Below are positions 1 through 31,910 of a DNA stretch of 47,895 nt, piece by piece. Every line of letters starts with the position of its first letter. The stretch's first letter is position 1. Both the position numbers and the translations under genes were made by a program. Below the pieces are notes generated by a model. It did no database searches. It was given only the letters and a program-made list of their open reading frames with translations, and was not told where the DNA came from. The DNA is from Cardinium endosymbiont of Dermatophagoides farinae (GTDB taxonomy: Bacteria; Bacteroidota; Bacteroidia; Cytophagales; Amoebophilaceae): NCBI RefSeq assembly GCF_007559345.1, contig NZ_VMBH01000004.1, positions 1 to 47,895 on the forward strand, in the 5' to 3' direction.

Positions 1-351
1 ACATTTCCTGATTAATCAGCTGTAAAAGCTCTTTAAACTGCGCTTTACAATCTAAACCATAGTAATCTGCCCACATACGGAATACATCACCCTGATGTCC
101 GTATTAAAAGACTTAAACTTCCATATGCCTTTATCTTTATAAATAGACATACTTGGTCTAGAGTCTTTTACTGAAAATATAGACTTATGGTTCTTTTTTT
201 CGTAAATTTGGGTTAAATGTAGGAACTAAGTGGCGTATAAGATTTTCTTCTCCACCTGCTTTTTCTAGAACTTGTTCTTTTGTTAACATACTTTGAATTT
301 TGTTACAAAATAGAATAATTCTTACATTAAAATAGGTCCTTCAAGCCTCAT
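1..351 (-). pseudogene. Primase-helicase, 5' end only (duplicate, cut by window edge, indels)
   Basis: This is the first part of the Toprim primase gene that is complete at its 5' end at 30208-31893. It runs off the left edge of the window. Compared with the other copy it has lost one G near 102 and gained one T in the run near 188, so the frame is broken. These differences look like contig-end sequence errors, and 30208-31893 should be used for the protein. The start corresponds to the ATG complementary to 349-351. Confidence 0.8.
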
Positions 352-367
352 TTATTAAAATAAGAAT

Positions 368-392
368 TAGCCTTCTTTGGGAGGCTTTTTTA
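368..392. terminator. Hairpin between repL-like gene and primase gene (first copy)
   Basis: TAGCCT and AGGCT(A) arms enclose an 8-nt loop and are followed by a T-rich run on the plus strand. The final A of the right arm is missing here but present in the duplicate at 31911-31938. It may be an attenuator between the two minus-strand genes. Confidence 0.4.
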
Positions 393-496
393 TTTATTAC
401 CCTTACATTTCCTACCACACACGTATAGAAATACTTGATCTGAAATTAAGATTGAGTTAATATCACAAAAGCTCATTCTAATAGAATTACGCATAC

Positions 497-831
497 TTAC
501 TTATCCAAAGATTTATCAATAAGTCCACTATTAACCCAGTATATACATCTGTATTTGGTTCTAGCTAATATATCTTTTTGACATAATTCTTTAAGAATTC
601 TAAATACAGATGTTTTGGTCTTATAGCCCGATACACTTAAAAAATCATCTATATCTATTAACATCTTTTCCTCGCTGAACAAGTTTCTATTTAACATGTA
701 CTTGATAAATTTTTGAGAAGACTTAGATAGGTTCAACATTACAGTCGGAATATCAAATTCTTTTACATGCTTTTCCAAAAAGGAGAAGCAGCATGTTCTT
801 TAAAATCCCTCAAACATTTCATTGTATTCAT
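497..831 (-). pseudogene. RepL-like winged-helix protein (duplicate, frameshifted)
   Basis: This is the same gene as the intact 111-residue reading at 32041-32376. One A is missing from the run near 776 (five instead of six), which cuts off the first 18 codons and leaves a 93-residue frame. Since the only lesion is a homopolymer length difference close to the contig end, it is probably a sequence error. Function and motifs are described at the intact copy. Confidence 0.7.
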
Positions 832-1761
832 CTTATTCTAATTGTTATCAAAAAATTTCATGGTAACATGATTACATATCAACCTCAACCGCAAAATACA
901 GGCAAAAATACTAATAGTATTAAATACGTATCATATAACTTCATAAATATATACACAAATATATAAATAATATACTAATCAAAACAAATACGTATACAAT
1001 TAAAAATATACTTACATACCAAAAACAGGATGTGGTAACTTGAGGTAAGTATGGGTAACTTTGTGGTAAGAATAAAAAATCAGTTTTTATAAAATATTAA
1101 TTTGAAAATCAATGTTTTATAAAAACTGTGGTAAGATGGTAAGATTTTAATGAGTTTATACAAACTAGTAAATATTTACACATAAAAATACACATACATA
1201 TGTATGTGTACGTATGTATTTCTTAATATCTATATATAATATTATCTTACCATCTTACCACATTACCATATACTTTATATATATAATTCTGATTATCAAC
1301 ACATATGTGTTTTAAAAAATTGTGGTAAGATGTGTGGTAAGATTAGAAATCTTGGCCATTATATCTTACCACCTTACCACACGATTATAAAATAAAGTAT
1401 CTCATAACCAATTATAATTATTAATCTTAAAAATTAGATGTGTAAGTATATGTGTCACATGCTTCGACACATACTTATAGAAATTGAAATAGTAGATCAA
1501 CACGTTCAAACTAGATGATTAATATATATATTATTGGTAACCATATATATAAATAAATCACATGTATCTATTATATGTCAAATGACATAAACTGACACTT
1601 CCACATGTTAAATAGAGTTCTCCTTGGGTATTTGAAATTATTGTAAGCTAATCTTGTTTTCTTATACCTAGCTCAGGTTTTTATAAAATTTCTGAATACA
1701 GTATACCTGTTAACAATTGCACTGGATAGATTCGCTCGCATTACGAGAGATAAAACTTATC
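832..1761. other. Probable replication origin region, GGTAAGAT repeats (first copy)
   Basis: No gene is seen in these 930 bases. They hold four tandem ten-base units with GGTAA cores at 1031-1070, then GTGGTAAGATGGTAAGAT at 1127-1144 and its exact inverse at 1243-1260, and another opposed pair at about 1322-1343 and 1364-1383. A 14-bp perfect inverted repeat (CAGTTTTTATAAAA) occupies 1081-1094/1115-1128, and a 22-bp perfect palindrome 1189-1210. An imperfect stem-loop lies at 1443-1478. The AT-rich iteron-like layout beside a RepL-like gene and a primase gene suggests an origin. The function is inferred. Confidence 0.6.
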
Positions 1762-3405
1762 TTACTTGTTCATCTGCTTTCTGAGCTCTTCTCTATTTAC
1801 TGTTTCATAGGCCCAACTATCTATAGATTTGGTTGCTTGGTCAAAGTTAATACCTAATAAGATAATCTCTTTAGCTTTCCATAAATACGAGGTATAATAC
1901 CTATTTTCTTTAATTTGTTGTAAGGCTACTTTATCATTTGATTTATACTTGATCTCTATGATATAAACTATGCTACCAATAGTAAGTACTATGTCTGCTC
2001 TACCTTTACTAGAAGGAGACTCACTAGCCACCTGACTGTTAATACCATCTAAACAGTTTAAACCATAAAGTAACATATGAAGGTTACTATGATAATCTTT
2101 TTCTGTTTTACTGGTTATGTAGTAAGGGATACTGGAAAAGGCTATGTTAATAGCGATAATAAAGGACTCAATATCTTTGGCTTGTAAAGTGCTTTTTATT
2201 TGGTCCTGGGTTGATATAAAATAGTCTTTAACACGCCGTTCCAAGGCATCTTTAACCGTTTGCGTAAAGGCCTTTTCTACCTCTTGATTAGGAAACTTAA
2301 GCTTATAAACCCCTGTAGATGGTTCATAACCATCTATCGTTAAATATCCAGTTTGAAACATCAATGCTTTCAAACTAATTTCATTTCTACTACCGGTATA
2401 CATTAATTCAAATCTATAAGCATCAATCGGTAATGCATTTAGTTCAAATCTATCAGGATCTGCTAACATTTGGTTTATAAGCATAGTTGGACTACCTGAT
2501 TCATACCAGTAGTCTTCTAGTTTACCAGAATCTAAAAATCTTAGCGTAGACCAAGGGTTATAGACACTCGCTCCATCTTCATAAAACTTATATCCATTGT
2601 AATAAGTAGCCATACGCCTCATTACTTCTGATGTAGATATTTTTTTATCTTCTTTTGTACCACATTTTTTAGCAATATCTTCCAATCTTTTTGCGAATAT
2701 GGTTAAGATTTCTTGCTGCGTATAACCAAACATAGCACCAGCAGAAGCATCAATGGTAATATCTTTTAAATGATTAGCCCCTGAAAATACGTCCGATAAA
2801 CTGAATTTGCTTACGCCAGTAATAAAAGTGAACTTAAAACGTTTATTGAGTGATTTTAAAGTCATGAAGAAATCTTTCATAACCTTAATATTGGCCTGTT
2901 CTAAGTCCGAACCTTTTGTTAAATTAACCATTGGGGCATCATACTCATCTATAAGGACTACGATATTAGATTCGTAACCGTTATTGAGCTTTGGAAAGTG
3001 CTTCCACTAAATCTTTTAATCCACTTTGTATATCTTTCGTTTGAATAGTTTACAACTATACGAGAAAGCTATTCTGGTTAACTCATCTTTTAAACTGTTT
3101 TCCAAGCAGTTCGGATTATGGTTTATGCCTGAAAAATCTATTTTGATTATAGGATATTTTTTCCACTCATACCGCTTTCTGGATTACCTATGTGGTACCC
3201 TTTAAACACTTCTTTCTCTCCTCTACATATCGTATCCAATGTATCGATAAACAAAGACTTGCCAAACCTCCTAGGCCGGGCTATAAATACAGGATTTCTA
3301 TTTCTATTAACTCTTGTGCATATCGTGTTTTATCTACGTAGTAGCCTGTTTCAATCACAGATTGAACATCTGAATAGCCAATAGGTAATGCATCTATCTT
3401 ATGCA
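1762..3405 (-). pseudogene. AAA-ATPase/PD-(D/E)XK protein (duplicate, broken by indels)
   Basis: Duplicate of the intact 547-residue gene at 33308-34951. An extra T near 2995, insertions near 3050, a missing C near 3176 and a missing T near 3303 break the first 158 codons, leaving a 389-residue frame that begins just after the Walker B segment. All lesions are absent from the other copy, so they are best read as end-of-contig errors rather than real decay. Confidence 0.75.
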
Positions 3406-3595
3406 TAATTTTATCTTGTTAAACTTTTTTATTTTAATTTCTGATTGCGTTGATCTTACTTTTAAACTTTAATTAACTTAGAATTCTTTTGTTTTGATTC
3501 ATTTTTTAACGGCATATAAACCAATAAAATGGGAAAAAACTTACCAAGAGTATATTCATTACTACCACGTTTACCTATCTTTCCCATTAGTTTAC

Positions 3596-3626
3596 TAATC
3601 CTAATCGTGTTCCACGATTAGGATTA
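3596..3626. other. Perfect 14-bp hairpin downstream of the coupling-protein gene (first copy)
   Basis: TAATCCTAATCGTG, a 3-nt spacer TTC, then the exact reverse complement. It is identical in the duplicate at 35141-35171 and has no T-tract on either side. Confidence 0.7.
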
Positions 3627-3651
3627 CACGAACATTAAAGCAAAAAGCATT

Positions 3652-5326
3652 TTATACTTTAACCCCCTGTTTACTAAATATACTATCTACCTCATTGTGT
3701 ATTCGCTCCCAATTATCTTCAATTTTTCTACCTAGTTCACTATCAAACTTACTTGTATCGATACTATTGGATAATTAGAATTATTAAGATGAGTAGCTAT
3801 AAACTGAGGCTTATTACCTGCCACCTTTATGGTAAAATGACCTGGAGGCTGAGAAGCTATATAATTAGGTGTCAAGTAGGACTCCTTACCTAGTGACTTA
3901 GTAACCGTATCGTCTTTGTCCGACATATTTATAGAAGTCCTAACATTTGTATAAGAACCTGCCATTTTAGAAACGTAGGAACCGGTTGTTAAATTGCTGG
4001 TCATACCAAAGAACTGGTTGCCCAAATTATTTCTAATAACTTCTGCCTTACTGCTTCCATACATGTTTTTGAGTTGTTCGAAATCTTGCACACATACAAT
4101 GGTCGATACATTATTAGACCTAGCTGTAGCAGGTAGATTCTCTAAACCCGGAATAAATAACGTAGGAGCCTCATCTAAGAGGAATATAGACTTATTCTTT
4201 CCCTGTTGATTTATATGTTTCATGCATACCGTACCAATCAGGGCTATAATGGAAGATAAAGAGTCGCTTAACCTGGGATCATTAGCAACAGTCAACATCG
4301 TTGGATGCGCAGGATTGCTAACATCTAAATCGACGGTATTTTGATCACTCAAATGACCAGAAAGTACCCAAAAGATTTCCTTGGTATATATCTTATTAAA
4401 TGGCAATTGCAAGGAAGAAAATACACCAGCTAGCTGTTTTTCTGCATTATTCTTGTAGGCAGTATGAATAGGCTCTATCATGATTTTTGTTTCCCTATCT
4501 AAAGATAGTAAGGCAATACTTTGTTCGTAATCCTTCATAGCAACCAGTAAGGCATGTGGTAAGGAACATAACGAACCATGATGCTTTTTAAGAAACCATA
4601 TAATCGCACTAAAAAATGCAATAGCATTATCTGACCAAAAATCTTGTTTGTGCATCCATTCTTTATTTAAATTTTTAAGTATGGCACTTGCATATTCTTG
4701 AGCGTAAAGCTTAAAAGGCAAATAACTGGGATGTAAGGGATTGCAACGGTGGGATAAATGCGTATTGGTAATATTAATATGAGCGAATTTAGTTTGTTTA
4801 TTTAAAAGCTCCTGATACATATGAGCAGACAAAGTTGGTGGATTACCTTTAAAATCATATAAAAATCCAGCAAAACCCATATCAGCAGCTTGGTAAATAA
4901 TAGGTTCCATAACAGAACTTGATTTTCCTGAACCAGCAGACCCTTCGATATATATACCCTGAGATAGACTATCCAATACTATAAATCCTCTTTTTGTCCT
5001 TTCCATATAAAACAATCAAGATATGGTTGCTTTTTATACTTACGATGCGTACTGCTTTGCAAAAACTGCTTATCCTCGGATGGTAGATCAGAAGTGTCAG
5101 GAATGAGACGATTAAATAAAATAAACGTTAACAATATGGCCAATAACATCCACTTATTACATAAGTCTAATGAACGAAAGACTGGTTTACCTTTAAGATA
5201 AAATATGACGAACACATCATATATAGTAGTGAAGCATAAAACAATGAATATTGATAAAAAAAGCAAAATCTTTTTTCTATCACGATGAAATATCCTAATA
5301 AAAATGTTTAAAATAAACTTTATCAT
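3652..5326 (-). pseudogene. VirD4/TraG-like coupling protein (duplicate, frameshifted)
   Basis: Duplicate of the intact 558-residue gene at 35197-36873. A missing G near 3748 changes the last residues and a missing T in the run near 4990 splits off the membrane part. The visible frames are therefore 115 residues (membrane segments) and 427 residues (ATPase). Both lesions are single-base run errors not seen in the second copy. Confidence 0.78.
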
Positions 5327-5345
5327 AATATATAAGATTTGAAAA

Positions 5346-6128
5346 TCAGATAGATAAACCCTTAGATTGATCCAAGGATTTGTGTTTATTTAATATGTTC
5401 ATAAAATTTTGCTTAGATAACGATCTGTCTATTTCACTGGCTTTGAATCGTTCTTCTTTTCCTGCTTGCATGATATAAAAACGTAAACCTTGAAAATCAC
5501 CTTGTTTGTTGTGATACGCTTCGGTCCTAATATTAAAACGGGCACCTTCTGTATTAAAAGAATTACTAAACGCATCTACAGAACGGATGCTACGGTCCTT
5601 TAATACAGACTTGGCAAGCTCTTTAACATTGTGTATAGCAGAGTTTTGCATAAGCTTATCTCTGGTTTTATCATTCTGCACATCTTTGGCTAAGGTTAAA
5701 TCCATCTCATAGGCAATAGTTTCTGCAGCACGAGAAGAACGATTGCTGATGTAATTGCCTTTATAAGCCTCTCCTGATTTACTAATCCTGTTTACATAAA
5801 CGTGAATATGCTTATGTGCCTTATTAGAATGCACAAAGGAGATGTATTGATGGTTTTTTAAGCCCATTTTGTCTAAAAAAGATTGGTTGATAGTTTTTAA
5901 GTTTTCATGGGATAGTTGACGACCATCTTCTATAGTTGGAGAAATAACAAAAGAAAGGGAATTCCGTTCACACCTACTATTCATATCTTGAAATAGTTTA
6001 AACTCTTTGGAAACACCATAGGCAGTTTCTGTTACAATATTTTTATCTAACAGAATACCTTTTTCGGTTTTTTGTGCATAGGCGATGCTGGCGCCGATGT
6101 GACTGATACTTTTACCTATGGAAATCAT
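5346..6128 (-). CDS. Relaxase / mobilization nuclease (first copy, intact)
   Basis: The 260-residue protein is identical to the one at 36893-37675, where the annotation is given. It has the relaxase HxH-type metal motif (H105, H107, H109 in AHKHIHVYVNR) and overlaps the upstream membrane-protein gene by 4 bases. Confidence 0.85.
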   Translation of the reverse strand: MISIGKSISHIGASIAYAQKTEKGILLDKNIVTETAYGVSKEFKLFQDMNSRCERNSLSFVISPTIEDGRQLSHENLKTINQSFLDKMGLKNHQYISFVHSNKAHKHIHVYVNRISKSGEAYKGNYISNRSSRAAETIAYEMDLTLAKDVQNDKTRDKLMQNSAIHNVKELAKSVLKDRSIRSVDAFSNSFNTEGARFNIRTEAYHNKQGDFQGLRFYIMQAGKEERFKASEIDRSLSKQNFMNILNKHKSLDQSKGLSI

Positions 6129-6516
6129 TTTTTTTCTGTTTTGGATAACTTTTGGTAAGCATTATAGTAGTGTTTAAATCCTTTTTCTAATTCGCATCGA
6201 AGAATATATTGATGGTAATTATACCAACTGCTTAAGAATAGACTGATAACGGATATGGACAATATAACCCATAACCAGACTGGAATGGTAATAAAACGTT
6301 TTAAGGTATGAAGAATATTGGCATGTTCTTTTTGCATGGGCCTATATCTATGGGAATGGGTTGATGATGTAATGCCTCTAATCTATTGGGATGATCAGTG
6401 GTAATGGATAATATTTTTTCATAATCTTTCTTACTTCGTTTGAGGCTTTCTATTTCTTGAATCAATACTTCTATTAAAACCTTTTGGCTCAAATTGGAGC
6501 TGCTTTTGATGTTCAT
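6125..6516 (-). pseudogene. Single-span membrane protein of the mob operon (duplicate, frameshifted)
   Basis: Duplicate of the 130-residue gene at 37672-38064. One G is missing from the GGGG run near 6339, splitting the frame into 71- and 70-residue pieces that meet at that run. This is probably a sequence error. Confidence 0.7.
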
Positions 6517-6922
6517 TTGCTAATCTTGTTGAGATGGTGATCTATTTTTTCGATGATGTATCGGACTTCTTTTTTAAAGTCTAATTGGTCTTTAATAAGG
6601 TTACTGATGCGGCTAAAGTGGTTTCGATAGTCTACTAACATTTGATAGACGGATAGTTCTTCTGGGTGAATCGGCTTTTGATGGTTTGATTGAGACCTAT
6701 TTTACGTAAATAATCACTCAGGGATAGTCCACAGTTTTTGGCCAGTAACTTGATGGCTATTTTTTCTGTTGGATAAAGCCGAATGGATAAGGTGGAGCTT
6801 TTATGAGTAACCTTTTTGGGACGCATGGCAAGTAATAAATAAGTAAATATACCAGAATGCCTTACATAGAAATCATTAAAAAAACAGGATACCCAAAACG
6901 GATTTAGAACCAAGATATCCAT
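6513..6922 (-). pseudogene. MobC-like relaxosome protein (duplicate, frameshifted)
   Basis: Duplicate of the 136-residue gene at 38061-38471. One G is missing from the run near 6663, so the frame departs after about residue 86 and closes at 6635. It is the last gene-breaking difference seen at the left end of the window; to its right the two copies agree until about 9220 (40770 in the other copy). Confidence 0.7.
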
Positions 6923-7339
<417 letters not shown>

Positions 7340-8287
7340 CTATACAAGGTCGTGAATCTGAGAAGGAGACAGGCCGGTAAGAAGGATAATGTCTTCTACA
7401 GGATAACCACGCAAAAGCATAGATTTAGCTATCTCTATGTTGCTTTCTAGTTTTCCCTTTTCTTCACCTATTTGGGTTCCTTCTTGTCTTCCTTTTTCCT
7501 CTCCTTCTTGTCTTAATCTTTCAGCTACTGACATGGCAATTTGATTTAATTTAGGGTTAGATTTCTTAATGGTTTCTAGTAAATTTGGATCATCATCTAC
7601 CTTTAACATATACAAAAAAGCTACATTAGCATAAACAATATAGTTTTTTTCTAAAAAATCTACAATTAGATTGATATGATTAGCAAACCATTGATTAAAC
7701 GAACGATAAATGCCTTGTTTGAGCACCATCACTGCAAAAGCAGCCTTTTTATAGCTAATCAGTTCGTCTTCAGAGGTACTATAGAGATCAACAAGATAAA
7801 ATTTATCAAACATGCACGATTTAGCTAATTCAGGATCTGAAAACATAGATAGTAGACTATTTGAGCCTTTATAGGGCTTATTTCCATTGTATATGCATAT
7901 GTTTAATATTACCGGTAAAGGAACATTGCCTTTCTCTTTTAGATGCTGACGCAACAACTGAACGTTATATTCTAGAAACCTAAGTGGCATATACGAATCT
8001 TCAGTAGATTGATGCTCGCAAATCGTGTACAAGTACCCTTCCTTTCCATTTATATTGGTTTTGAATACTAAATCAGATTCTCCTCTTCTACCTACTGGAT
8101 CAACAAAGCTTTTATCCGTCAACTCTAAATTTTCTTGGTCTATTGTTATAAATAGATCGGAAGGTAAATTAGCAGCTAGAAAATCTAGCATAGCTTCCTT
8201 ATTACAAAAAGTATTTTTAAAAGCGTAATCATGAGGTTTATCTAGTTCCTCTTTTTTATTTTTCCTCTTATTTCTCTTCTTAGTCAT
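7340..8287 (-). CDS. Rpn-family nuclease / PD-(D/E)XK putative transposase protein (first copy)
   Basis: This 315-residue protein resembles the Rpn (recombination-promoting nuclease) family, formerly annotated as putative transposases. Near the N-terminus it has KPHDYAFKNTF. The PD-(D/E)XK-like core follows, with SDLVF (D72) and the E-x-Q motif in CEHQS (E91, Q93), then the conserved MPLRFLEY segment at 100-107. The tail is a charged GEEKGRQEG repeat ending in a short helical motif (LLTGLSPSQIHDL), as is common in this family. Known members are DNA endonucleases that raise recombination, but this protein's activity is inferred. It is identical to the copy at 38889-39836 and stands alone, with a decayed relative's tail just upstream at 8326-8538. 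Confidence 0.85.
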   Translation of the reverse strand: MTKKRNKRKNKKEELDKPHDYAFKNTFCNKEAMLDFLAANLPSDLFITIDQENLELTDKSFVDPVGRRGESDLVFKTNINGKEGYLYTICEHQSTEDSYMPLRFLEYNVQLLRQHLKEKGNVPLPVILNICIYNGNKPYKGSNSLLSMFSDPELAKSCMFDKFYLVDLYSTSEDELISYKKAAFAVMVLKQGIYRSFNQWFANHINLIVDFLEKNYIVYANVAFLYMLKVDDDPNLLETIKKSNPKLNQIAMSVAERLRQEGEEKGRQEGTQIGEEKGKLESNIEIAKSMLLRGYPVEDIILLTGLSPSQIHDLV

Positions 8288-8325
8288 TTGATCAATACAT
8301 TAAGACAAATTAACAGGGTTAAAAA

Positions 8326-8538
8326 TTAAAGAATCTGTTGTATATCAGATTTATATAAACCAGTGAAGCGCATGATCTTGTCTACTGACTCATCTTCTTG
8401 GAGCATTAACTTAGCGATTTCTATACTTCTTTTCTACTCTCACTGTTTTTTACTTTCTATTCTAGAGACTTTTATTTTTTCCTTAAAAAGGATCTTATCG
8501 TTTTCTTTTTCTAGTTCTCTGACCCTATGTAGTTGCAT
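8326..8538 (-). pseudogene. Relic of a second Rpn-family gene, C-terminal part (first copy)
   Basis: Read on the minus strand, this stretch gives a charged coiled segment, two in-frame stops, and then a tail (IEIAKLML...KIMRFTGLYKSDIQQIL) that aligns with the end of the neighbouring intact Rpn protein (IEIAKSMLLRGY...LLTGLSPSQIHDL). No N-terminal nuclease core remains. It suggests a former tandem pair of Rpn genes. Identical at 39875-40087. Confidence 0.6.
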
Positions 8539-8707
8539 GATTTATTCTTTGAATAATACCTCTTGCCTCAGGTTTGAGTAGTACTTTGTACTGAATTGAA
8601 GGCTTTCCATTATATGCCGTTCCCTTAAATTTGAACACTGAAAGGTAGACAGTTTTTATAGCATTTAACCAGATTACTAGCTACTATAGCCTCAATTTTA
8701 TCAAGAA
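8539..8707. other. Short gene-free spacer
   Basis: The spacer between the Rpn relic and the winged-helix gene. Nothing recognisable was found. Confidence 0.5.
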
Positions 8708-9850
8708 CTATAACGTATTCATTTCTTCTTTAATTTTTTTCAATTCATCTGGCATATTACTCTTCCAGAAATGTTCTTTGAAATAGCTTTTTAAAGCTAT
8801 TATTTTTTGTATATCCTTAGCAAAAAGTGCTTTCTTAACATGATCGGGAATTATTCCGTTTTTTTCTGCTTCTGTTAAACCGGATGACCATAACTCAAAC
8901 GCATTAGAAAAAAAGTCTTCCTCTAAATTTTTTAATCTTTCTAACCTATCTTTTCTTTGTTTAGCCAACTTTTTAAGTGCTATTTCTTGAGGAGACATAT
9001 AATCATGCTCAACCCAAGCCCCACCTTTTTGTAAAACAGACATAAACGTTCCCAACTTATTTTTATACTTATTCAATGTGCCAGATTTGTTCTGAAGGGC
9101 AAAAGAAAAGTGATCAATAGAAGTTTGAACGGTGTCTGCTGTATTAGTACCTTTACTATAAATTTGACGAATTTGCGGAAGGCCAAATCCTATTTCTTCA
9201 AGATCTCTACAATCTATATTTTCCCATTCTTTGGGTAAAGAATGATTTTCATTTAAGGACGTTTTTGTAGATTCAGTTTTTTTCACTAAGGAAAAAGTAT
9301 TCTTAAAGGATTGACTACTTTCTAAATCTAATTGCAACCTAAAAGCATTAACGAACGCCTTATCGAACCTAAAAACAGAAAAACCACTTTTCCCAGTTTT
9401 GCCACCAACCCGTTCCATAAGACCTTTTTCAATGATCCTTTGTACAACTTTCCTCAAGGTTTTTTTAGTTGTGTTGGTAACACTAGATAAAGTTTCAATC
9501 GTTACTGGACCTGTAACAGATTCCCCTCTAACCGTACAACAACTAACAAAATATCTAACGATGCGTTTTTGAATACCACAAAGTTTAGAGACTTCTTCAT
9601 GATAATTCAACTTCGTATTGATACTATTTTGACTACATTCTAGACCTTTATCGACCAGTTTATTTTCACTACCTTTACTAACTACTATTTTTATAGACGT
9701 ATCATCTAATGTCTGGGAAGAATCGTTTATTGAACTAATGGGTTTATTTATACCTTGATTGATAACTTCATTCTGAAGCAAGTAAGGGGCCCTTCTTTTA
9801 GGCACAAACTTTTTCTTGGTTCCATCTTGGGTAAAAACTGGAGCAGTCAT
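8708..9850 (-). CDS. Winged-helix plasmid protein downstream of parA (probable partition or replication partner)
   Basis: This 380-residue protein has no family I can name with certainty. Residues 1-90 are polar and probably disordered. A winged-helix DNA-binding domain follows at about 95-180: EEVSKLCGIQKRIVRYF, then TIETLSSVTNTTKKTLRKVV as the recognition helix, then a GKSGFSVFRFD wing. The rest is helical and basic (LKKLAKQRKDRLERLKNLEEDF). It starts 10 bases after the parA stop, so the two are probably cotranscribed. That position and the iterons upstream of parA suggest a ParB-like centromere-binding or replication role, which is inferred. A 20-residue relic of a paralogue's C-terminus lies at 23587-23661. 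This is the clean copy; 40257-41395 is broken. Confidence 0.7.
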   Translation of the reverse strand: MTAPVFTQDGTKKKFVPKRRAPYLLQNEVINQGINKPISSINDSSQTLDDTSIKIVVSKGSENKLVDKGLECSQNSINTKLNYHEEVSKLCGIQKRIVRYFVSCCTVRGESVTGPVTIETLSSVTNTTKKTLRKVVQRIIEKGLMERVGGKTGKSGFSVFRFDKAFVNAFRLQLDLESSQSFKNTFSLVKKTESTKTSLNENHSLPKEWENIDCRDLEEIGFGLPQIRQIYSKGTNTADTVQTSIDHFSFALQNKSGTLNKYKNKLGTFMSVLQKGGAWVEHDYMSPQEIALKKLAKQRKDRLERLKNLEEDFFSNAFELWSSGLTEAEKNGIIPDHVKKALFAKDIQKIIALKSYFKEHFWKSNMPDELKKIKEEMNTL

Positions 9851-9860
9851 AATTTATCTA

Positions 9861-10853
9861 TTAATAACCTTTTATCATTTCTGGATTAGTGAAATGGGAA
9901 ACAATATGGTTACTTTTCAAGTTATGCATTTCTAATAGTTCACGCGTAAAAGTATCAATATCCTCTCTACCTGCTGTGCTTGCAGTACTATCAAATACCG
10001 TTGATTTGCGTCTTCTGTATTTTTCAATTTCCTTACACTTCCTGATATAACCAGAAAACATCATTTCACCATATTGATGGTGTTTAATTAAATCAGAATA
10101 GGTATCTCTTGAATCCTTCTCTCTATTATCAAACTGATTCAGAATAATTTTCATTGGAATCTTCGGCATATCGTGATCATTACACATACGGTTAATCTCG
10201 TTAACCGTAATATCAATACCAGAATCACTAAAGTCACAAGGAGTCGTAGGAAGAACAACCATATCAGATGTAAGCACAGCAGCAGAAATAGATTGACCTA
10301 AAGAAGGTGGACAATCTATTAAAATTAGATCATAGGCTGAACGTAAAGGATCAACCTTGGACTTGAGTACTTTCTGAAGCGGAACTTGCTTTAACATAAT
10401 AAAGTTATCAAGCACAGAGTTATCATAACGACTCGGCAAAATATCTAATCCAGGTAGCACATTAACTGTAGAGTTCGTTATCTTAATTAAACTATCATCC
10501 AATAAATCAATCAAAACAGGATAATCATTAGCATTGATACCAAAAGACTTAGTCAAGTTCCCTTGGTGATCAATTTCAATAACTAAAACTTTTTTACCCA
10601 TTAAGGTTGCACGTATAGCTGTTTCGCGACATAAAGTTGACTTTCCTACACCACCCTTAACCAAAACAAACACAACAACTTTACAGGGTTGTTTATATGG
10701 CGCAAACATTTTTATAGCTGTTTCGTATTCAAAATAAACCCTATTGCGAAGCTTATTGTAGGCTAATTTTTTCGACTTGAGTTGTTTATGAATAGCCTGG
10801 ACGCTAACGCCCAATATATCGGCTGCTTCTATAGCTAACATTTTTGGATGCAT
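9861..10853 (-). CDS. parA: ParA-type partition ATPase with N-terminal HTH
   Basis: This 330-residue P-loop ATPase belongs to the ParA/MinD group and would segregate plasmid copies by ATP-dependent binding to the nucleoid. Residues 1-50 form a small helix-turn-helix/MerR-like DNA-binding domain (AIEAADILGVSVQAIHKQL), as in type Ia ParA proteins that repress their own operon. The deviant Walker A KGGVGKS is at 66-72, the second motif EIDHQGNLTKS at about 93-103, and Walker B/switch DCPPSLG at 180-186. The winged-helix gene follows closely, and the iteron array lies upstream at 11041-11373, as expected for a par locus with its centromere or operator in front. It is identical to the copy at 41406-42398. 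Confidence 0.92.
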   Translation of the reverse strand: MHPKMLAIEAADILGVSVQAIHKQLKSKKLAYNKLRNRVYFEYETAIKMFAPYKQPCKVVVFVLVKGGVGKSTLCRETAIRATLMGKKVLVIEIDHQGNLTKSFGINANDYPVLIDLLDDSLIKITNSTVNVLPGLDILPSRYDNSVLDNFIMLKQVPLQKVLKSKVDPLRSAYDLILIDCPPSLGQSISAAVLTSDMVVLPTTPCDFSDSGIDITVNEINRMCNDHDMPKIPMKIILNQFDNREKDSRDTYSDLIKHHQYGEMMFSGYIRKCKEIEKYRRRKSTVFDSTASTAGREDIDTFTRELLEMHNLKSNHIVSHFTNPEMIKGY

Positions 10854-11040
10854 CTAAATTTACGGTTCAATATGGTTTAAGTGATATAAAAAATAACTAC
10901 ATAAACTTAAACTATAAATAACAAATTGGCAAGACTTTAAATAATTTTTTGATGTGTTTACAAATTTAATACCCCCACGCTAGTTATAGTTGTTTTTTTA
11001 TTTTTTTAACAATAATTACAACTACTATAACAAGGCTGTT
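10854..11040. promoter_or_regulatory. parA leader with partial dyad (first copy)
   Basis: An AT-rich leader. A GTTATAGTTGT segment near 10984 faces an imperfect inverse ACAACTACTATAAC near 11020, a possible operator for the ParA HTH. The promoter itself could not be fixed. Confidence 0.3.
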
Positions 11041-11373
11041 TGACTACTAATTTGACTACTAAACAAATAAAATTGATGAACTGGTTTCTTGTTGTTAATG
11101 CTAATATTAATCAAATTTATAATTTGACTATCAGGTATATACTGCAAATTAGATTCATATAATTTTTGTATTACATAACTGCTTCTAGTCAGGAAATCAA
11201 TATACTAGTTTGACTACTAAATGGACTACTAAATAGACTACCAATAGTATATATGTGACTACCAAATAGACTGCTATTAGACTACTAATAGTATATATGT
11301 GACTACCAAATAGACTGCTATTAGACTACTAATAGGACTACCAAATAGACTACTAATAGGACTACCAAATAGA
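11041..11373. repeat. GACTAC iteron array upstream of parA (first copy)
   Basis: Twelve GACTAC cores, mostly within GACTACYAAATAG or GACTACTAATAG units, plus two GACTGC variants, all in direct orientation. Two isolated cores lie at 11042 and 11054, and ten are packed into 11212-11373. Inside the array a 44-bp unit beginning AGTATATATGTG is perfectly duplicated at 11246-11289 and 11290-11333. Tandem direct repeats upstream of parA are typical of a partition centromere or of replication iterons. Which of the two applies here is inferred. Confidence 0.75.
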
Positions 11374-11456
11374 TAAAAGTTATTAGGAATAAAAGGTATT
11401 AGACTTATGTAAGTATTTTATCTTTTAAATATTTTCAAGTTCTTGTGAAATTCCTT

Positions 11457-11702
11457 TTAACTTAACGTTTTTTTGACCGCACTTAAATGACTTTTATATC
11501 TGACTATCTCCTTCATATTTTTTTCTGTAGGCTCTATGATTAGTAATCGTTCTCTAATATTAACAGTCACTATTTCGTCTATTTCAAATCCTATCCTTTT
11601 TATCCATTTTCCCTCCAAACGAATAGTTGGAACGTCTTTACCAGACCGGTATAATTTTTGAATCTTTATTCGACGGACTATTTTATCAATAAATATGGAC
11701 AC
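11457..11702 (-). CDS. SymE-like toxin (AbrB-fold, type I toxin family)
   Basis: This 81-residue protein matches the SymE pattern: an N-terminal RRIKIQKLYR strand, then VPTIRLEGKWIKRIGFEI, then VTVNIRERLLIIEP. The family is known from E. coli SymE, an SOS-induced protein controlled by an antisense RNA (SymR) and affecting RNA and nucleoid state. No antisense RNA promoter could be fixed here. The gene is divergent from an XRE regulator at 11861, with two dyads in the shared intergenic space, so transcriptional control by that protein is plausible. It may act as a plasmid-stabilising toxin. The duplicate at 43002-43247 is identical. Confidence 0.72.
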   Translation of the reverse strand: MSIFIDKIVRRIKIQKLYRSGKDVPTIRLEGKWIKRIGFEIDEIVTVNIRERLLIIEPTEKNMKEIVRYKSHLSAVKKTLS

Positions 11703-11730
11703 GATTTTGGTTTTACTGGAATAGTGTAAA

Positions 11731-11782
11731 TACTACATAATTGTAGTAAAATTAATAAATATGTATGTACTATACAATAGTA
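11731..11782. promoter_or_regulatory. Two related dyads between symE-like and xre genes (first copy)
   Basis: TACTACA-TAAT-TGTAGTA at 11731-11748 and TACTAT-ACA-ATAGTA at 11768-11782 share the TACTA half-site. They sit in the divergent intergenic region and are good candidates for operators of the XRE protein. Confidence 0.5.
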
Positions 11783-11860
11783 TCCTGTTTTTATCAAGTA
11801 TTTTTTTGTGTGTATATTTATTGGCTGCATAATTAATAATCTATTAAGTCCCATAAAAAA

Positions 11861-12190
11861 ATGAGTTTTGGAGAGCGATTAACCTTAGTTAGAAAAAGAA
11901 AAAAGTTGTCTCAATCAGATTTAGGCAAAAAAACAGGTATTAATGGGGATGCTTATGGTAGATATGAGCGTGGTGAGGTAAGGCCTACTATAGAGATGGC
12001 TGTTAAAATAGCACAAGCTCTTGAAGTGTCTTTGGACTATTTGACAGGAATTTCAGATATTGAATTAGATAAAGATATGATGGTTAGGATGCAGGAGATA
12101 TCTAAACTAGATGATAAGGATAAGCATCACCTTTTTATGACCTTAGACGCACTGATACGAGATTTTAAAAATAAGAAGGAGTATAGCTAA
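11861..12190 (+). CDS. XRE-family transcriptional regulator
   Basis: A 109-residue DNA-binding protein. The Cro/CI helix-turn-helix spans about residues 6-62: ERLTLVRKRKKLSQSDLGKK, then an IN..AYGRYERG recognition region, then PTIEMAVKIAQALEVSLDYL. A short helical tail follows (KLDDKDKHHLFMTLDALIRD), probably for dimerisation. It is divergent from the SymE-like gene, and two dyads lie between them, so autoregulation and control of the toxin gene are likely but inferred. The duplicate at 43405-43732 is frameshifted near 43524. Confidence 0.88.
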   Translation: MSFGERLTLVRKRKKLSQSDLGKKTGINGDAYGRYERGEVRPTIEMAVKIAQALEVSLDYLTGISDIELDKDMMVRMQEISKLDDKDKHHLFMTLDALIRDFKNKKEYS

Positions 12191-12365
12191 TAACTATTTT
12201 ATTTTCATTTTCAATAATTTATTTTTTTGTATACATACATTTTTTATGTTTTTAATTAAAATTTGTAGTAAAAATAATTTTGTACTAGTAGACTCGAATC
12301 ATCAGAAAATTACGGTTTTGATTTTAGGCTCAAGGGATTTGATTAATCTAGGGTATTAAGGGTAA
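12191..12365. other. Gene-free spacer after xre
   Basis: AT-rich sequence in which no gene or clear terminator was seen. Confidence 0.4.
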
Positions 12366-12570
12366 CTACTCACATTCTGATCCTAACGTAGGTAGGTGGG
12401 CTAATGGTTTATCATTTATTTTGAGTACTTTGCGCTTAATAGAATCGATAGACGTTTCTATATAGACTGTATTCCATAGTGTGATAGCAGCTGTGAGTAG
12501 CGTTAGTCCACTGAAATGGTAGATCTGATTTTACATTCCTCTATCTCTGATATAACCTATGTTTGTACAG
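12366..12570 (-). pseudogene. Relic of a Tn3-family transposase C-terminus (first copy)
   Basis: Minus-strand translation gives GYIRDRGM-stop-NQIYHFSGLTLL, then TAAITLWNTVYIETSIDSIK and a tail ending LAHLPTLGSE. This aligns with the end of the transposase at 27290-30095 (GEIRDRNLENQSYRASGLTLL, TAAITLWNTVYIERAVDSLK). It has an in-frame stop and no upstream part. It differs enough from that transposase to be an older, independent insertion. A copy is at 43907-44110. Confidence 0.8.
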
Positions 12571-12765
12571 TTTGATGATGTATTTTATAAGGGTTTAGAT
12601 GATTCCGACAAGCCTAGTTTTGGTTTGATAATTTTTTGATACAAAGTTCACATATAATAGTTGTTATTGATATACATAAAATTGCAACAAGCGTAAGGTT
12701 AAACCTTAACTATTACACATAATCTTTTAGAAAGATTCTTCATCTCTCTACTATATAATATTACC
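12571..12765. other. Gene-free spacer with a 15-bp palindrome
   Basis: A perfect dyad TAAGGTT-A-AACCTTA lies at 12694-12708. No gene was recognised. A short plus-strand open stretch near 12571-12640 resembles nothing I know. Confidence 0.4.
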
Positions 12766-13199
12766 TTATCTCTTCTCTGATCCTTGATAAACATCAGTAC
12801 CAAAATTTAACCATTTTCCTGTTTTTAAAAAGGCTGGTACAACATGGATATCTTTCAAGTCTTGAACATCAAAAAATTGATAGGTTTTAACCAGACCATC
12901 TTGATCTAACCAATTTTTAGGAAGCTCATCTACAACTATTTCTGCAGTAAAGTAGACTTCTATCTTATGTACATTACATTTTTTATCAAAAAATTCTGCA
13001 ACATAGACAATCTGGTTTGGTTTAACATCAATTCCAGTTCCTTCCTTTACTTCTCTTACCATAATTCTGGAAGCATTTCACTTGGGTTTAAGTGCCCACC
13101 AGGTGTATACCAAAGCCTATAATCATTGCTCACAAGTAACAATTTCCTATTTTTTACTATTAGCGCTCTAGCTGTTACTTGTACAGTGTAATCTTTCAT
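12766..13199 (-). pseudogene. Nudix hydrolase gene with a -1 frameshift inside the Nudix box
   Basis: From the ATG complementary to 13197-13199 the frame reads MKDYTVQVTARALIVKNRK, then YTPGGHLNPSEMLPELW and stops. The next frame continues as MVREVKEGTGIDVKP to the stop at 12766. Adding one base at about 13063 joins them into a 144-residue protein with correct Nudix spacing, G-x5-E-x7-REV-x-E. The usual second Glu of the EE pair is Gly (REVKEGTG), so activity is doubtful even if the frame were restored. Both copies in the window share the shift (the other is at 44305-44736), so it is not simply an end error. The family hydrolyses nucleoside diphosphates linked to other groups. Confidence 0.75.
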
Positions 13200-13335
13200 T
13201 TTGTTATGCTTGTTTATATAATTTTAATGCTAAGCACCTATTAGATCCATTATGTGATAAATCATATTTGGGAATTATGTTCATCTATTTATAATAAATA
13301 AACCATGCGTTATGATTTGTATGATTCACTTATAG
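13200..13335. other. Spacer between two Nudix genes
   Basis: A short AT-rich gap in which nothing distinctive was seen. Confidence 0.4.
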
Positions 13336-14085
13336 TTACATTACAGATTTTAATTTCACCAGGAATGCATCTCGTTTTAATGCATCGTAGAAAAACTTTC
13401 TTATCGTAAACGTATACGCATTACCGTCTATATCTTTTAATACACAAAGATTATGTTCGACTTTGCATAAACTATCACATGAAACCCATTTAAAGTCATC
13501 TTTCTCCCTATAAGTATCCTTATTTTGATGATTGACTGCCTTACATAATACATCAGCAGGATAAAAATCATTTACTTTCAGTAAGATATATACTTCTTCT
13601 CTAATACACCCATCCTTTTTCTTATGCTCACTATAACAAACCACACCATTATTCAATAAATCATTTGGGTCTAACTGATATATACCTTCACTTTCCTCCT
13701 TTGATTCGCGAATAGCAGCTTCTAAAAAACTTTCACCTGTTTCCACACTTCCACCTAATTCACACCATGTTTCCCCATCACATTTTCCTACTCGTTCTCT
13801 ACCTAGTAAGACAAAACTTTCTTGTTTATCATTAGTATAGCAAAGTAAAACACCAACACTGGCCTTTATATTTTGTTCTAATCTTCTTTCAAGTATAGTT
13901 TTGCTGTCATAACTACACACTGTTGAGCCATATTCCAATTGTACTTGACTAGGCATCGGGTTTTTATTAGGCAACATGCCAGTCCTATGCGCCATGTAGC
14001 TACAAGCAACAGGACATAGATAAAAAAGTATACATAAACGAAACATAGCAAATAGGATTTTTCTTCTAATCTGATTACTATCCAT
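13336..14085 (-). CDS. Nudix hydrolase with N-terminal membrane anchor or signal peptide
   Basis: A 249-residue protein. Residues 8-30 are hydrophobic after RRK (ILFAMFRLCILFYLCPVACS), suggesting a signal anchor or an atypical lipoprotein signal. The Nudix domain follows from about 73 to 245, with the Nudix box starting at GG111-112 (SVETGESFLEAAIRESKEES), keeping G-x5-E-x7-RE-x-x-EE and thus the metal-binding glutamates. An extracytoplasmic or membrane-tethered Nudix enzyme is unusual. Its substrate is unknown. It is divergent from the symporter fusion gene, 148 bases away, and follows a decayed Nudix gene. The duplicate at 44874-45619 carries end-of-contig indels. Confidence 0.85.
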   Translation of the reverse strand: MDSNQIRRKILFAMFRLCILFYLCPVACSYMAHRTGMLPNKNPMPSQVQLEYGSTVCSYDSKTILERRLEQNIKASVGVLLCYTNDKQESFVLLGRERVGKCDGETWCELGGSVETGESFLEAAIRESKEESEGIYQLDPNDLLNNGVVCYSEHKKKDGCIREEVYILLKVNDFYPADVLCKAVNHQNKDTYREKDDFKWVSCDSLCKVEHNLCVLKDIDGNAYTFTIRKFFYDALKRDAFLVKLKSVM

Positions 14086-14233
14086 TATATAGTATATGTA
14101 TATGTATGCACATATATTATAACACTTAATACAAAAATTAAATGAATATTATATGCCATTACCATTCAGGATGGAAGTATTCAATAAATTTTATTATAGT
14201 GTTTTGCTAGAAACGTGAAAATATAGATAAGCC
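14086..14233. promoter_or_regulatory. Divergent intergenic region between Nudix and symporter-HD genes
   Basis: This 148-base AT-rich gap separates two divergent starts, so it must hold both promoters. A TATATGTATATGTATGCACATATA stretch near 14091-14116 forms overlapping partial dyads. Exact promoter elements could not be fixed. Confidence 0.3.
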
Positions 14234-17200
14234 ATGGATATAGACCTATTGATTATAATAGTATTCTTAGTAACTACACTGGCAATAGGATTATACTGTA
14301 GTAGATCAGTTACTACATTTAGAGACTATGCAGTAGGCAGTAGAAATATGTCTACTTGGGTGGTTACTATTTCTTTAATAGCTACCATATATGGAGGGAA
14401 TTTTTTACATACCCAACTGACTGGTTATTACTATCAAGGCTTATATATGTTACTACTAAGTTTAGGTAGTCCACTTAGGTTTTATTTAGCCTCTCGGTTT
14501 ATTATTGTTAGAATGAAAGAGTGGCTAGGAGATTTTTCCATTGCTGAATCTATGGGTAGGCTATGTGGAAGATCCGTTCGAATACTTACGGCCATCTTTG
14601 GTATTATAGTAACGATAGCTAAGGTTTCTGCTCAGTTTAAGATTAGTTTAATTATTATTGAATCTATTACTTCTTGTAATGCACCAGCATATGCTAATTA
14701 TTACACAGTCATTTTAGGACTACTCGTTACAGCTTACACTATTTTAGGTGGGGCTAGGTCTGTAGCACTAACAGATGTTTATCAATTTTGTTTCTTCAGT
14801 ATTTGTTTGCCTATTTTAACGTTTACTTTTTTATACAATGCTCAAAATACATGGATTAATTGGCAAAAATTTGTCAATATGTCACAGTTTAATTTATCTC
14901 AAATAGCTACTTGGGATCTCTCTCCTACATGGGATAATTCTTTAGTTCATTTATTTGCTTATTTCATTTGGCATTCCATATTTACTTTTGATCCAGCTCA
15001 AATCCAGCGTTTTTATATGTCTTCTTCTATTCAACAAGCCACCAAAGTATTTTTTAAAAGTGGTACAATTCGGATCATTTTTTCGCTACTATTTTTAGTT
15101 GTTATTGCTGCTTTATATACAAGTGGCAATAGTGTTCCACCTAAACAAAAAATACTAGACTATATTATTCAGCTTAATCATTTTCCTGGAATCAAAGGAT
15201 TGCTTATAACAGCTATTATTGCTTTATGTATTTCTACTGTTGACTCTTATTTGCATACAGGTTCTGTGTTATTTGCTAATGATATATGGCCTTTCATAAC
15301 CTGTTCTAGAGAACGAACCGATAAATATTCTCTAAGAGTTGTACGAATATCCTCTGGTTTAATAGGTATAGCTACTATTCTGATCACATTACACATGAGC
15401 AATATTAGACAATTTTTAAATAAAGTATTTTATTTCTATACTCCTTCGGTTACAGTTCCAATGATTATGGCTTGTTTTGGATTTAGACCCCGTTCGGCTG
15501 CTGTCTTATGGTCGATGGGCATCAACACAGCTATGACGGTTTATCATATCTTTATAAAAGGGCAAGCTATAAGAGAACGTGATGTATTTCTATCCCTTAT
15601 ATATGGTGCGTTCATTTTATTGATCTTTCATTACCTCTTACCTAAAAAGCCAAATACAGGATGGGTGGGTATTCCAGATGATAGTCCAGTAAAGCTACAA
15701 AACCAAGAAACCAAACGTTGGTGGTTAAGAAAGCTATATTATTTTCAATCAATTTTTACTACTTCTTATTGGAAGGATACATTTCCTAAAAACGCTACTA
15801 CTTTCATAGCGTCAGGCATTTATTTTATTATTTACAGCTCCATACTACTTTTCTATGTGAGGAAAGTATATATATTTTCCTACATTTACTGGTATATAGC
15901 TGTCATGGCTATAGGAACAATAGTAACCATCTATCCTACATTTCACGCTTATAAACAGGAAGGTAATCGTTTTTTGCATGGATTATGGCCTATATTGTTA
16001 TGTGTTGTCTTTTTTATTTCTGGCATCACCTATATGAAATTAAGCCATTTTTCACCTATGTCTTGCGCACTATTTATAGTAAATATAGGTCTAAGTAGTC
16101 TATTATTACCATATACTATAACAATAGTCATGCTATCTTTTGTATTATTGATATATAGATGGATACCGCCTCATTTAGACCTTGTAAGTTATAAAGAGTT
16201 GATAACTACAGAAACAATGATAGGATTAACCATTTTACTCAGTTGTTTAGTATATCGATATCTAAGGAATACAACTAACAGACAATTACAAACTATAGCG
16301 TTAACTAGAAGCTGTGATCAACAGTATGCGCTAGATTCTCTACATAATCAAGCCAACTGGAACCGATTAGACCCTACCTATAGTGGCAAAGTACTACAAG
16401 ATATGGCTGATGAGTTAAACCCATATGTAGTAAATCTACCTATACAGGAATTCCAGAAGAAGCTTTATATATTTAGCCAATCTCTGCTGAAAAGGGCTAA
16501 GGAAGAACGTACGTTTACCTTAGACTCAAAATCTATCCATAAAGTTGACATAGAGAAACTAATCCTAAAATCTTATGAAACGGTTAGGAAACTAGATATA
16601 CCAATACAGTTGCTTGTAACGAAAAAAACAAAAGAAAAATATTTATTAACTGCCCCCACTACTTTTGAAAGATTATTGACTATAAATTTTTTAAACCTAT
16701 GCCAGGGTAAATATATCATAGATCATGCCGTTTATTTAACTATTTCAGACACACTGTTATCTTACCCTTTTCCTGAACCTAATCAGGTATCTATACGTAG
16801 TACGCACGAGAAGCAGTTAAAAGCGCCCATATTATCTGCACTCGCTTTTTCTATATCTACAGATGCAGATAGACCCAATATATCACCTACTTACGTAGTT
16901 ACTGACGAACTTACTTCAGACTATTTACCTAAGACCATCCATAATCTGTATCAAGAAGAAAGTAGACAAATGGTACAAGCGCATGGAGGATATATAGAAA
17001 CCATAGAAACAGAAACGGGTTTAACCTGCCTCTATATATTACCTATTGATGGTAAAAAAGTTATGCAGTTTAAACGATATCATACCGATGACTTATCTAA
17101 TAAGGTAGCAGAGACTGATGAAAGTTTAGCTCAAGAAAAAGAACTCATTCGTTTACTTGTAAGCAACACAACTTTAACGGAGCAAAAGGTAAAAAAAACC

Positions 17201-17701
17201 ATTCACTTTATTAAGCAAGCACATGGCAATACTATACGTAAGTCTGGCGATCCTTATTATACCCATCCTATGGGGGTAACTAAGATTGTATTAGAAGCTA
17301 CCAAGAATGCTGATACCATTTTGGCTGCTCTATTGCATGATGTAGTAGAGGATACAACCGTTACATTAGAGCAAATAGAACTACTATATGGAGTGGAAGT
17401 GGCTTATATAGTAGATATGGTTACGCATTATAATACTTATGGGTTGCGATGGAAATTAGATAAGTCTGATAATCAAATTATATTAAATAAGTGCAAGGAC
17501 ATTCGTGTCGTTCAGATTAAACTTGCTGATAGACTGCATAATCTAAGAACTATAACTGCAAGAAAACTAGAAGACCAAAAAAGAATAGCAAAAGATACTG
17601 TGGAGTTTTACATTCCATGGTCTAAAAAAAATAATGTTTTAACCTGGGTATCAGAAATGGAAAATATATGTGAGCAGATTTTAAATGCTGGTTCTTCATG
17701 A
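14234..17701 (+). CDS. Sodium:solute symporter / degenerate kinase-like / RelA-SpoT-type HD fusion
   Basis: This 1155-residue multi-domain membrane protein begins (about 1-465) as an SSS/SLC5 sodium:solute symporter, with helices, a GGARSVALTDVYQF segment at 172-185 and the sodium-site-like CISTVDSYLHTGS at 332-344. Further membrane spans lie at about 522-545, 552-568, 583-600, 608-645 and 660-675. Residues 690-945 resemble a sensor-kinase C-terminus; the last part reads RQMVQAHGGYIETIETETG, like the end of an ATPase domain, but the clear N and G boxes and the phospho-accepting His are missing. Residues 985-1130 are a RelA/SpoT HD domain: YTHP (H1011), LLHDVVEDTT (H1035, D1036) and IKLADRLHNLRT (D1099). 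The synthetase domain is absent. A transport-coupled (p)ppGpp hydrolase is inferred. SLC5 domains joined to kinases are known (CbrA), but I know of no such HD fusion. Confidence 0.88.
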   Translation: MDIDLLIIIVFLVTTLAIGLYCSRSVTTFRDYAVGSRNMSTWVVTISLIATIYGGNFLHTQLTGYYYQGLYMLLLSLGSPLRFYLASRFIIVRMKEWLGDFSIAESMGRLCGRSVRILTAIFGIIVTIAKVSAQFKISLIIIESITSCNAPAYANYYTVILGLLVTAYTILGGARSVALTDVYQFCFFSICLPILTFTFLYNAQNTWINWQKFVNMSQFNLSQIATWDLSPTWDNSLVHLFAYFIWHSIFTFDPAQIQRFYMSSSIQQATKVFFKSGTIRIIFSLLFLVVIAALYTSGNSVPPKQKILDYIIQLNHFPGIKGLLITAIIALCISTVDSYLHTGSVLFANDIWPFITCSRERTDKYSLRVVRISSGLIGIATILITLHMSNIRQFLNKVFYFYTPSVTVPMIMACFGFRPRSAAVLWSMGINTAMTVYHIFIKGQAIRERDVFLSLIYGAFILLIFHYLLPKKPNTGWVGIPDDSPVKLQNQETKRWWLRKLYYFQSIFTTSYWKDTFPKNATTFIASGIYFIIYSSILLFYVRKVYIFSYIYWYIAVMAIGTIVTIYPTFHAYKQEGNRFLHGLWPILLCVVFFISGITYMKLSHFSPMSCALFIVNIGLSSLLLPYTITIVMLSFVLLIYRWIPPHLDLVSYKELITTETMIGLTILLSCLVYRYLRNTTNRQLQTIALTRSCDQQYALDSLHNQANWNRLDPTYSGKVLQDMADELNPYVVNLPIQEFQKKLYIFSQSLLKRAKEERTFTLDSKSIHKVDIEKLILKSYETVRKLDIPIQLLVTKKTKEKYLLTAPTTFERLLTINFLNLCQGKYIIDHAVYLTISDTLLSYPFPEPNQVSIRSTHEKQLKAPILSALAFSISTDADRPNISPTYVVTDELTSDYLPKTIHNLYQEESRQMVQAHGGYIETIETETGLTCLYILPIDGKKVMQFKRYHTDDLSNKVAETDESLAQEKELIRLLVSNTTLTEQKVKKTIHFIKQAHGNTIRKSGDPYYTHPMGVTKIVLEATKNADTILAALLHDVVEDTTVTLEQIELLYGVEVAYIVDMVTHYNTYGLRWKLDKSDNQIILNKCKDIRVVQIKLADRLHNLRTITARKLEDQKRIAKDTVEFYIPWSKKNNVLTWVSEMENICEQILNAGSS

Positions 17702-26315: not shown

Positions 26316-26353
26316 GGGGTCTCCTTGGATATAGGAAATTATTGTACGTTAAG
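26316..26353. repeat. 38-bp terminal inverted repeat, left end of the transposon
   Basis: It starts GGGGTCTCCTTGGATATAGG and ends ACGTTAAG, the canonical Tn3 end pattern. It pairs with 30171-30208 with a single mismatch. Confidence 0.95.
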
Positions 26354-31893: not shown

Positions 31894-31910
31894 TTATTAA
31901 AAATAAGAAT

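Follow-up and report, generated by a model that had tools for sequence, protein, structure and literature searches.

The window analysed here, a stretch of 47,895 nucleotides, represents the whole of contig C4 of a Cardinium genome. Its public counterpart is CP101109, plasmid p_A of the D. farinae symbiont, with 99.8% identity across positions 497-1761. Because positions 1-16361 recur at 31546-47895 with 99.68% identity, with gaps, the contig is one Cardinium plasmid circle of ~31.5 kb that was read ~1.52 times. In PMC10117132 the circle was taken, for the same reason, to be the first 31,550 bases of the p_A contig, and CP101109 also has a 2.27-kb terminal repeat, which is reported there as well. 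The original prediction had placed a second copy of the region of interest at 32377-33307. That copy proved to be the wrap-around of the circle, the two readings differing by one gap, and a duplicated origin was rejected on the grounds that the overlap simply re-reads the first copy. In the same genome, contig C5 is likewise a circle, of ~20.6 kb, and matches in contig C3 recur ~29.2 kb apart. The published description of the plasmids (PMC10117132) states that how p_A and p_B replicate is unknown and, in its account of the annotation, presents plasmid A as devoid of genes annotated with primase activity. Elsewhere in the window, positions 14234-17701 code for a 1155-aa protein that carries an HD-domain annotation in p_A and is in pieces in the second reading; its first part looks transporter-like by eye.

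An array of short boxes, the proposed core of a VapE-type origin, occupies positions 1030-1381 of the window (32576-32927 in the second reading). It starts with four direct boxes, GTGGTAA, GAGGTAA, TGGGTAA and GTGGTAA, at 1031-1070 on the plus strand, which were detected by a tandem repeat finder and have a period of 10-11. After an imperfect hairpin at 1081-1128 (23-nt arms, 91% complementary), an inner pair of boxes on the plus strand (1128-1145, period 8) faces an A+T-rich spacer at 1146-1243, the proposed melting site, on the other side of which lies a converging inner pair on the minus strand (1244-1261), with a third, weaker box to about 1269. Outer converging pairs at 1322-1343 (plus strand) and 1363-1380 (minus strand) together span 1322-1380. 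Direct tandem boxes followed by inverted pairs had been predicted and were indeed found, at 1031-1070 and 1128-1380, as were a 22-bp palindrome, at 1189-1210 inside the spacer, and a 14-bp palindrome, AACACATATGTGTT, at 1298-1311. The predicted inverted arms are exact and about 100 bases apart (1127-1145 and 1244-1262, 100% complementary, 98 nt between them), but they are 19 nt long rather than 18. Measured between the 7-bp box cores, the spacer is 104 bp with 81% A+T, against 73% in its surroundings.

The boxes are strongly concentrated at this site. With at most one mismatch allowed, 9 of the 11 matches to GTGGTAAGAT in the circle (1-31545) fall inside 1063-1380, i.e. 318 bp; 200 dinucleotide shuffles gave at most two matches per 320-bp stretch, and the entire window holds 20 matches for 3.2 expected. 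The 14-bp palindrome adjoins TTATCAACA (1293-1301), which is one mismatch off the DnaA box consensus. The circle has six near-matches to that consensus, one of them in the array (1293), which is uninformative. A GC-skew switch, which had been proposed as a check, was not observed at the array, the skew having the same sign to its left and right over 2 kb (-0.16/-0.11), 4 kb (-0.11/-0.10) and 8 kb (-0.08/-0.04). An isolated 27-nt stretch, 89% like the Tn3 terminal repeat, is located close to the array at 1619-1645 (and 33165-33191); the chromosome has many others like it.

The array lies upstream of a small gene (497-831, minus strand) coding for a 111-aa protein, the frame of which is broken in the first reading and intact at 32041-32376. 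This protein had been described as RepL-like and proposed as the initiator, which is not supported: searches of Pfam, PHROGs and NCBIfam gave no match to RepL at E 0.1 and none to another family above the cut-off, and box type shows no correlation with the small protein (see below). The identification of a RepL plasmid was rejected on the basis of the same searches. A single-sequence model of the protein is winged-helix-like, with low confidence (mean pLDDT 59). In two places, L067 (G013:C92) and L045 (on contig C2), a different small gene, unmatched by the small-protein search, precedes the VapE gene.

Beyond the small gene is a primase-helicase gene in two parts. The N-terminal part (30208-31893, minus strand) comprises the toprim primase and the helicase up to the Walker A motif, and the C-terminal part (25653-26315, minus strand) comprises the remaining VapE domain and a winged helix whose wing reads DRVKQRTHRGSLYGYF. 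They are separated by a Tn3-family element (26316-30208, with the transposase at 27459-30095 and the resolvase at 26463-27122), which is flanked by 5-bp repeats, TAATA, at 26311-26315 and 30209-30213. A primase gene is thus present beside the array, as anticipated (Toprim_2 match, E 4e-8), but it is interrupted by the Tn3 element. The split falls between the Walker A and B motifs, identified by eye, in both assemblies, and the same split of the p_A gene by a transposon is noted in PMC10117132. The VapE-like domain was recognized in the proteins of pcBtQ1 (E 1e-24) and pCher (E 1e-22) and in the C-terminal part from the window (E 1e-18), and a profile match was obtained, at E 3e-17, to PDB entry 7pds, described as 'similar to D. 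nodosus vapE'. This entry is a SaPI Rep.

The primase-helicases are alike save for a short stretch near their end, after a nearly invariant helix. In the predicted model of the C-terminal part from the window, this variable segment forms a beta-hairpin (strands 200-205 and 208-217), the wing of a winged helix that spans residues 141-220, a block with pLDDT values of 83-96 in an otherwise poor model. A winged-helix fold with a beta-hairpin wing characterizes RFX/P4-type domains. The first three Foldseek matches, all weak (E 0.05-0.12, none below 0.001), were two RFX domains and, at rank 3, the P4 origin-binding domain (1ka8; probability 0.91, E 0.12). VIA-align also placed RFX domains first (Z 8.7 and 7.5); 1ka8 is not among its best 50 matches listed, an absence that proves nothing. 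RFX reads bases with its wing. As set out below, comparison of sequences from related bacteria suggests that the C-terminal winged helix of the primase-helicase is the likely reader of the boxes, with the wing deciding which box is read.

Homologues of the small gene were found in four plasmid records, at 16 sites of the genome that includes C4, both readings and pieces counted, and in 3 of the 37 genomes searched, all of one genus. Arrays of the same design are located upstream of the small gene in pcBtQ1, both pCher modules, C3, C5 and C2; the boxes of the pcBtQ1, pCher, C3, C5 and C2 arrays are GTAGTAAGAT, GTAGTAA, ATAGTAAGAT, a GAGTAAGAT/ATAGTAAGAT mix and AACGTAAGA, with ATAGTAAGAT boxes in pCher_b and C3. 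In a further module of C2 (C2_67), the boxes are AATGTAAGA and the small gene is a different one, and G013, from another genus of the family, has AGGGTAATTA boxes. The stretch encompassing the array and the small gene of C2_67 does not align with its counterparts in the other modules, whereas to either side of it the genes match at 82-93%. In all eight Cardinium modules compared, most of which have a box of their own, and with box patterns hand-picked for each module, converging boxes surround 83-104 bp of 81-88% A+T, a modest contrast since the surroundings already have 73-79% A+T. This symmetric design fits the two-way initiation that had been proposed. On C4, a further facing pair (98 bp, 62% A+T) that lies outside the array and is unrelated to it came up as well.

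A motif-free repeat scan recovered the arrays beside the VapE modules in CP101108, pcBtQ1, pCher, C5 and the window, together with the GACTAC repeats described below, coding repeats in the ankyrin gene region of pcBtQ1 and two other stretches of pCher; an ATAG microsatellite in p_A was listed as well. No such array was found upstream of the small-gene paralogues C1_599, C5_9.6, G004, C1_860, C1_851 and C3_23.7, nor at the VapE gene of G002. The Cardinium plasmids pCher, pcBtQ1 and p_B are like the window in having a homologous primase-helicase, the small gene and the array, and unlike it in having other boxes and other wings. A chromosomal relic of the module is present at G000:C1 572400-575500 (L046; also L019), where seven AAGGCCAG boxes, with a different core, have a short VapE fragment alone beside them.

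Within Cardinium, box distance was correlated with wing distance (Mantel r 0.76, p 1.5e-4, eight modules, without those of p_B, which are included in the pairing comparisons below), but not with the rest of the VapE C-terminal part (r -0.04, p 0.49). In seven modules, with the pairings of G000, it was not correlated with distance in the small protein either (r -0.08, p 0.63). Chromosomal relics were left out of the Mantel tests, as was G013, whose array and VapE C-terminal part are on separate contigs. CP101108 joins three arrays to other wings than G000 does, and with its pairings the Cardinium correlation vanishes (r 0.08, p 0.34); all 11 pairings together give r 0.06 (p 0.26), and the five modules outside the pairing dispute r 0.77 (p 0.036). 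In CP101108.1 (L091-L093), which corresponds to p_B, a C3-type array occurs three times with three different VapE wings, reflecting either a mosaic or a misassembly. It is possible that the CP101108 pairings stem from misassembly, because one of the three switches occurs exactly at the end join of the record and because contig B is described as having complicated features and many repeats (PMC10117132). Alternatively, real recombination may lie behind them.

We then considered VapE relatives across Bacteroidota, collected from overlapping sets of 57, 395, 123, 244 and 395 genomes. Seventy loci were examined, and 51 were kept as non-redundant after those with tails >80% identical had been dropped. 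A first scan of genome contigs with the Cardinium VapE gave no match, the viral contigs yielded two distant VapE loci, both without arrays, and many VapE loci had no array in the array scan. In flavobacterial loci, the arrays directly follow VapE. The wings were sorted into two classes, A (the type found in the window) and B, by rules drawn up by eye from the first examples; in the 51 loci to which these were subsequently applied, L150 was counted among the 'other' wings. At least four GTRGTAA boxes within 570 bp after VapE were found in 8 of the 13 loci with class A wings and in 0 of the 38 others, a count that includes L122, which meets the class A rule and had been omitted from earlier counts. 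The class A loci without such boxes are L104 and L117, which have GCAGTAA boxes instead, L115, L122 and L123. Similarly, at least two TAGGTAA boxes accompany class B wings in 10/11 cases, as compared with 0/40 for the other wings.

The set was enlarged with a second scan, in which the best 80 of 274 relatives were taken from named genomes, mostly of flavobacteria, and 39 of them kept, and with a third sampling of 53 loci (23 and 30) plus 20 stretches hand-chosen from the matches, with overlapping genome sets. Of 155 loci with a class-B-shaped wing, 75 were kept as non-redundant. Those with Gln in the wing (n=57) have the A-box TAGGTAA in 53 cases, no box in 4 and the G-box in none, and those with Arg (n=8) have the G-box TGGGTAA in 7 cases and no box in 1, without a single crossed Gln/Arg case; Gly or Glu (n=10) goes with the G-box in 7 cases and with no box in 3. 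On the tree, Gln/Arg changes occurred four times independently, all four with a concordant box change, for which the floor of the sign test is 0.125. On an 85-locus tree, for which 85 of 150 loci were kept, class A offers one pair on supported branches and is uninformative. For '.KR' wings, a nearby proline separates GTAG (7/7) from GTGG (4/4) boxes, a rule that is post hoc except for L105, for which GTAG was expected before counting; it is based on eight loci with at least four boxes and three Cardinium modules, leaving out L104 and L117 (GCAGTAA) and L115 (proline, no boxes). Directly observed are the box array, the geometry conserved among the modules and, statistically, the association of wing with box. 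One locus, L095, also harbours ~16 same-orientation repeats with ATGTGTAAA at about 3134-3334, 520-720 bp after a VapE gene that has six TAGGTAA boxes as well.

The repeated boxes very probably represent a plasmid replication origin. Taken as a whole, the best explanation, which we hold with good confidence, is that 1030-1381 is the origin of a VapE-type replicon whose boxes are bound by the winged helix of the primase-helicase. From the sequences we infer binding, melting and direction as well as the status of origin itself, as follows. The primase-helicase of the plasmid would bind the boxes through its C-terminal winged helix, the wing reading their variable bases, and the boxes on both sides would load two hexamers facing each other across the A+T-rich spacer. 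The spacer would then melt, the toprim domain would prime, and replication would exit in both directions. The same principle is described for other bacteria in the PICI and SCCmec papers (PMC6092414, PMC7581432).

Other readings of the locus give the leading role to different elements. If the small 111-aa protein were the initiator or a repressor acting on the boxes, VapE would merely follow; in line with this idea are the winged-helix-like model of the small protein and the position of its gene, which separates the array from the primase-helicase in 7 of the 8 Cardinium modules compared. We nevertheless consider it unlikely, given that the protein has no family match above the cut-off, that the box type does not track it in the seven modules paired as in G000, that the array is kept beside a different small gene both in C2_67, the eighth module, and in G013, and that the flavobacterial arrays come directly after VapE. 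A regulator is a more likely role for this small gene than an initiator. It is less likely still that the array is a transfer origin or a single-strand (hairpin) origin instead of a double-strand replication origin. Hairpins are present in it, and in pcBtQ1, one pCher module, p_B/C3, C2 and C5 the array has the small gene on one side and, on the other, a MobV/plasmid-recombination gene or a homologue. The neighbour of the array in the window is an ATPase/nuclease gene, however, with a relaxase of another family farther off, and the array of the other pCher module has no annotated relaxase gene as its neighbour; the box type follows the helicase wing, and the position of flavobacterial arrays also speaks against a transfer function.

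Falling just short of an even chance, and compatible with a VapE-type origin at 1030-1381, is the idea that the array region is a relic and that the plasmid now replicates from a second candidate replicon or partition module at 8708-11373. The latter comprises the genes for ParA (9861-10853, minus strand) and for a 380-aa protein (8708-9850, minus strand) that may contain a winged helix, with GACTAC direct repeats upstream of both (11039-11373). Relatives of the 380-aa protein occur in plasmids of Piscirickettsia and Legionella; in the single region inspected there, they are beside ParA genes. The protein also matches replication-initiation families weakly (E 0.005-0.012). Plasmid A is maintained, at a coverage of 146.4x as opposed to 108.6x for the chromosome (PMC10117132), with its VapE gene split within the helicase. 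Conversely, both VapE parts are stop-free up to the ends of the Tn3 element and about equally similar to pcBtQ1 (64.4% and 64.7%; 62.6% and 55.1% to pCher), and therefore the break is recent or the parts have been kept. Moreover, relatives without stops are encoded in the same genome, on C5, C3 and, in one case, C2, with wings that differ from that of the window, and the GACTAC repeats beside ParA could equally well be a partition site. Because the Tn3 element splits the primase-helicase gene, the origin in the present plasmid may have fallen silent or depend on help in trans. Three arrangements come into question: a partner acting in trans, cooperation between the two parts, or replacement by the ParA/380-aa/GACTAC module.

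Several known systems resemble the proposed VapE-type replicon in part. The alpha protein of phage P4 is a primase-helicase that binds iterons, with a primase of a different type from the Cardinium toprim; the C-terminal winged helix of the window resembles the P4 origin-binding domain 1ka8, as judged from the predicted model and with a weak score (E 0.12). In SaPI/PICI elements, the C-terminal domain of the helicase recognizes short iterons, and the origin adjoins rep and consists of two iteron sets flanking an A+T-rich region, a layout that the PICI paper presents as shared with no other known bacterial replicon (PMC6092414, PMC7581432). The Cardinium modules likewise encode a VapE/D5-type helicase, split in the window, and have two iteron sets around an A+T-rich region in 8/8 cases. 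They differ in that the SaPI/PICI origin is directly 3' of the helicase gene, whereas the Cardinium array is 5' of the small gene; the arrays of the flavobacterial relatives are 3' of VapE, as in SaPI/PICI. In addition, Cardinium belongs to Bacteroidota, its helicase has a toprim domain fused in front, and its boxes are others. By analogy, the Cardinium module appears to work like a SaPI/PICI-type replicon, but we did not file it as a member because its array is not directly 3' of the helicase gene. In the Vibrio cholerae satellite PLE, the DNA-binding domain of RepA and the origin covary and swap as a module, with a RepA_N initiator and other, longer iterons (PMC8263062). The archaeal plasmid pRN1 (orf56/orf904) is alike in that one operon encodes both a small copy-control protein and a primase-helicase that contains a winged helix; it differs in its archaeal primase type and in its origin, a ~100-bp stem-loop downstream rather than a box array (PMC4234260).

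We lean towards a broader reading, in which the wing of the C-terminal winged helix would serve as an address code for the box in the VapE-type replicons of Bacteroidota. As read from the sequences, Gln would specify TAGGTAA and Arg TGGGTAA, and for '.KR' wings a nearby proline would decide between GTAGTAA and GTGGTAA. The array would change along with the wing while the rest stays alike, giving related plasmids in one cell their own replication identity and compatibility. No paper on DUF3874 or on iterons in Cardinium was found in the literature searched, subscription papers being outside its scope. For plasmids of unexplained replication, a shared module with a primase and an origin candidate can now be named. 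If the wing-box link is true, origin and plasmid compatibility would be predictable from protein sequence across a large phylum and, more speculatively, the module might be of use in building vectors for uncultured symbionts.
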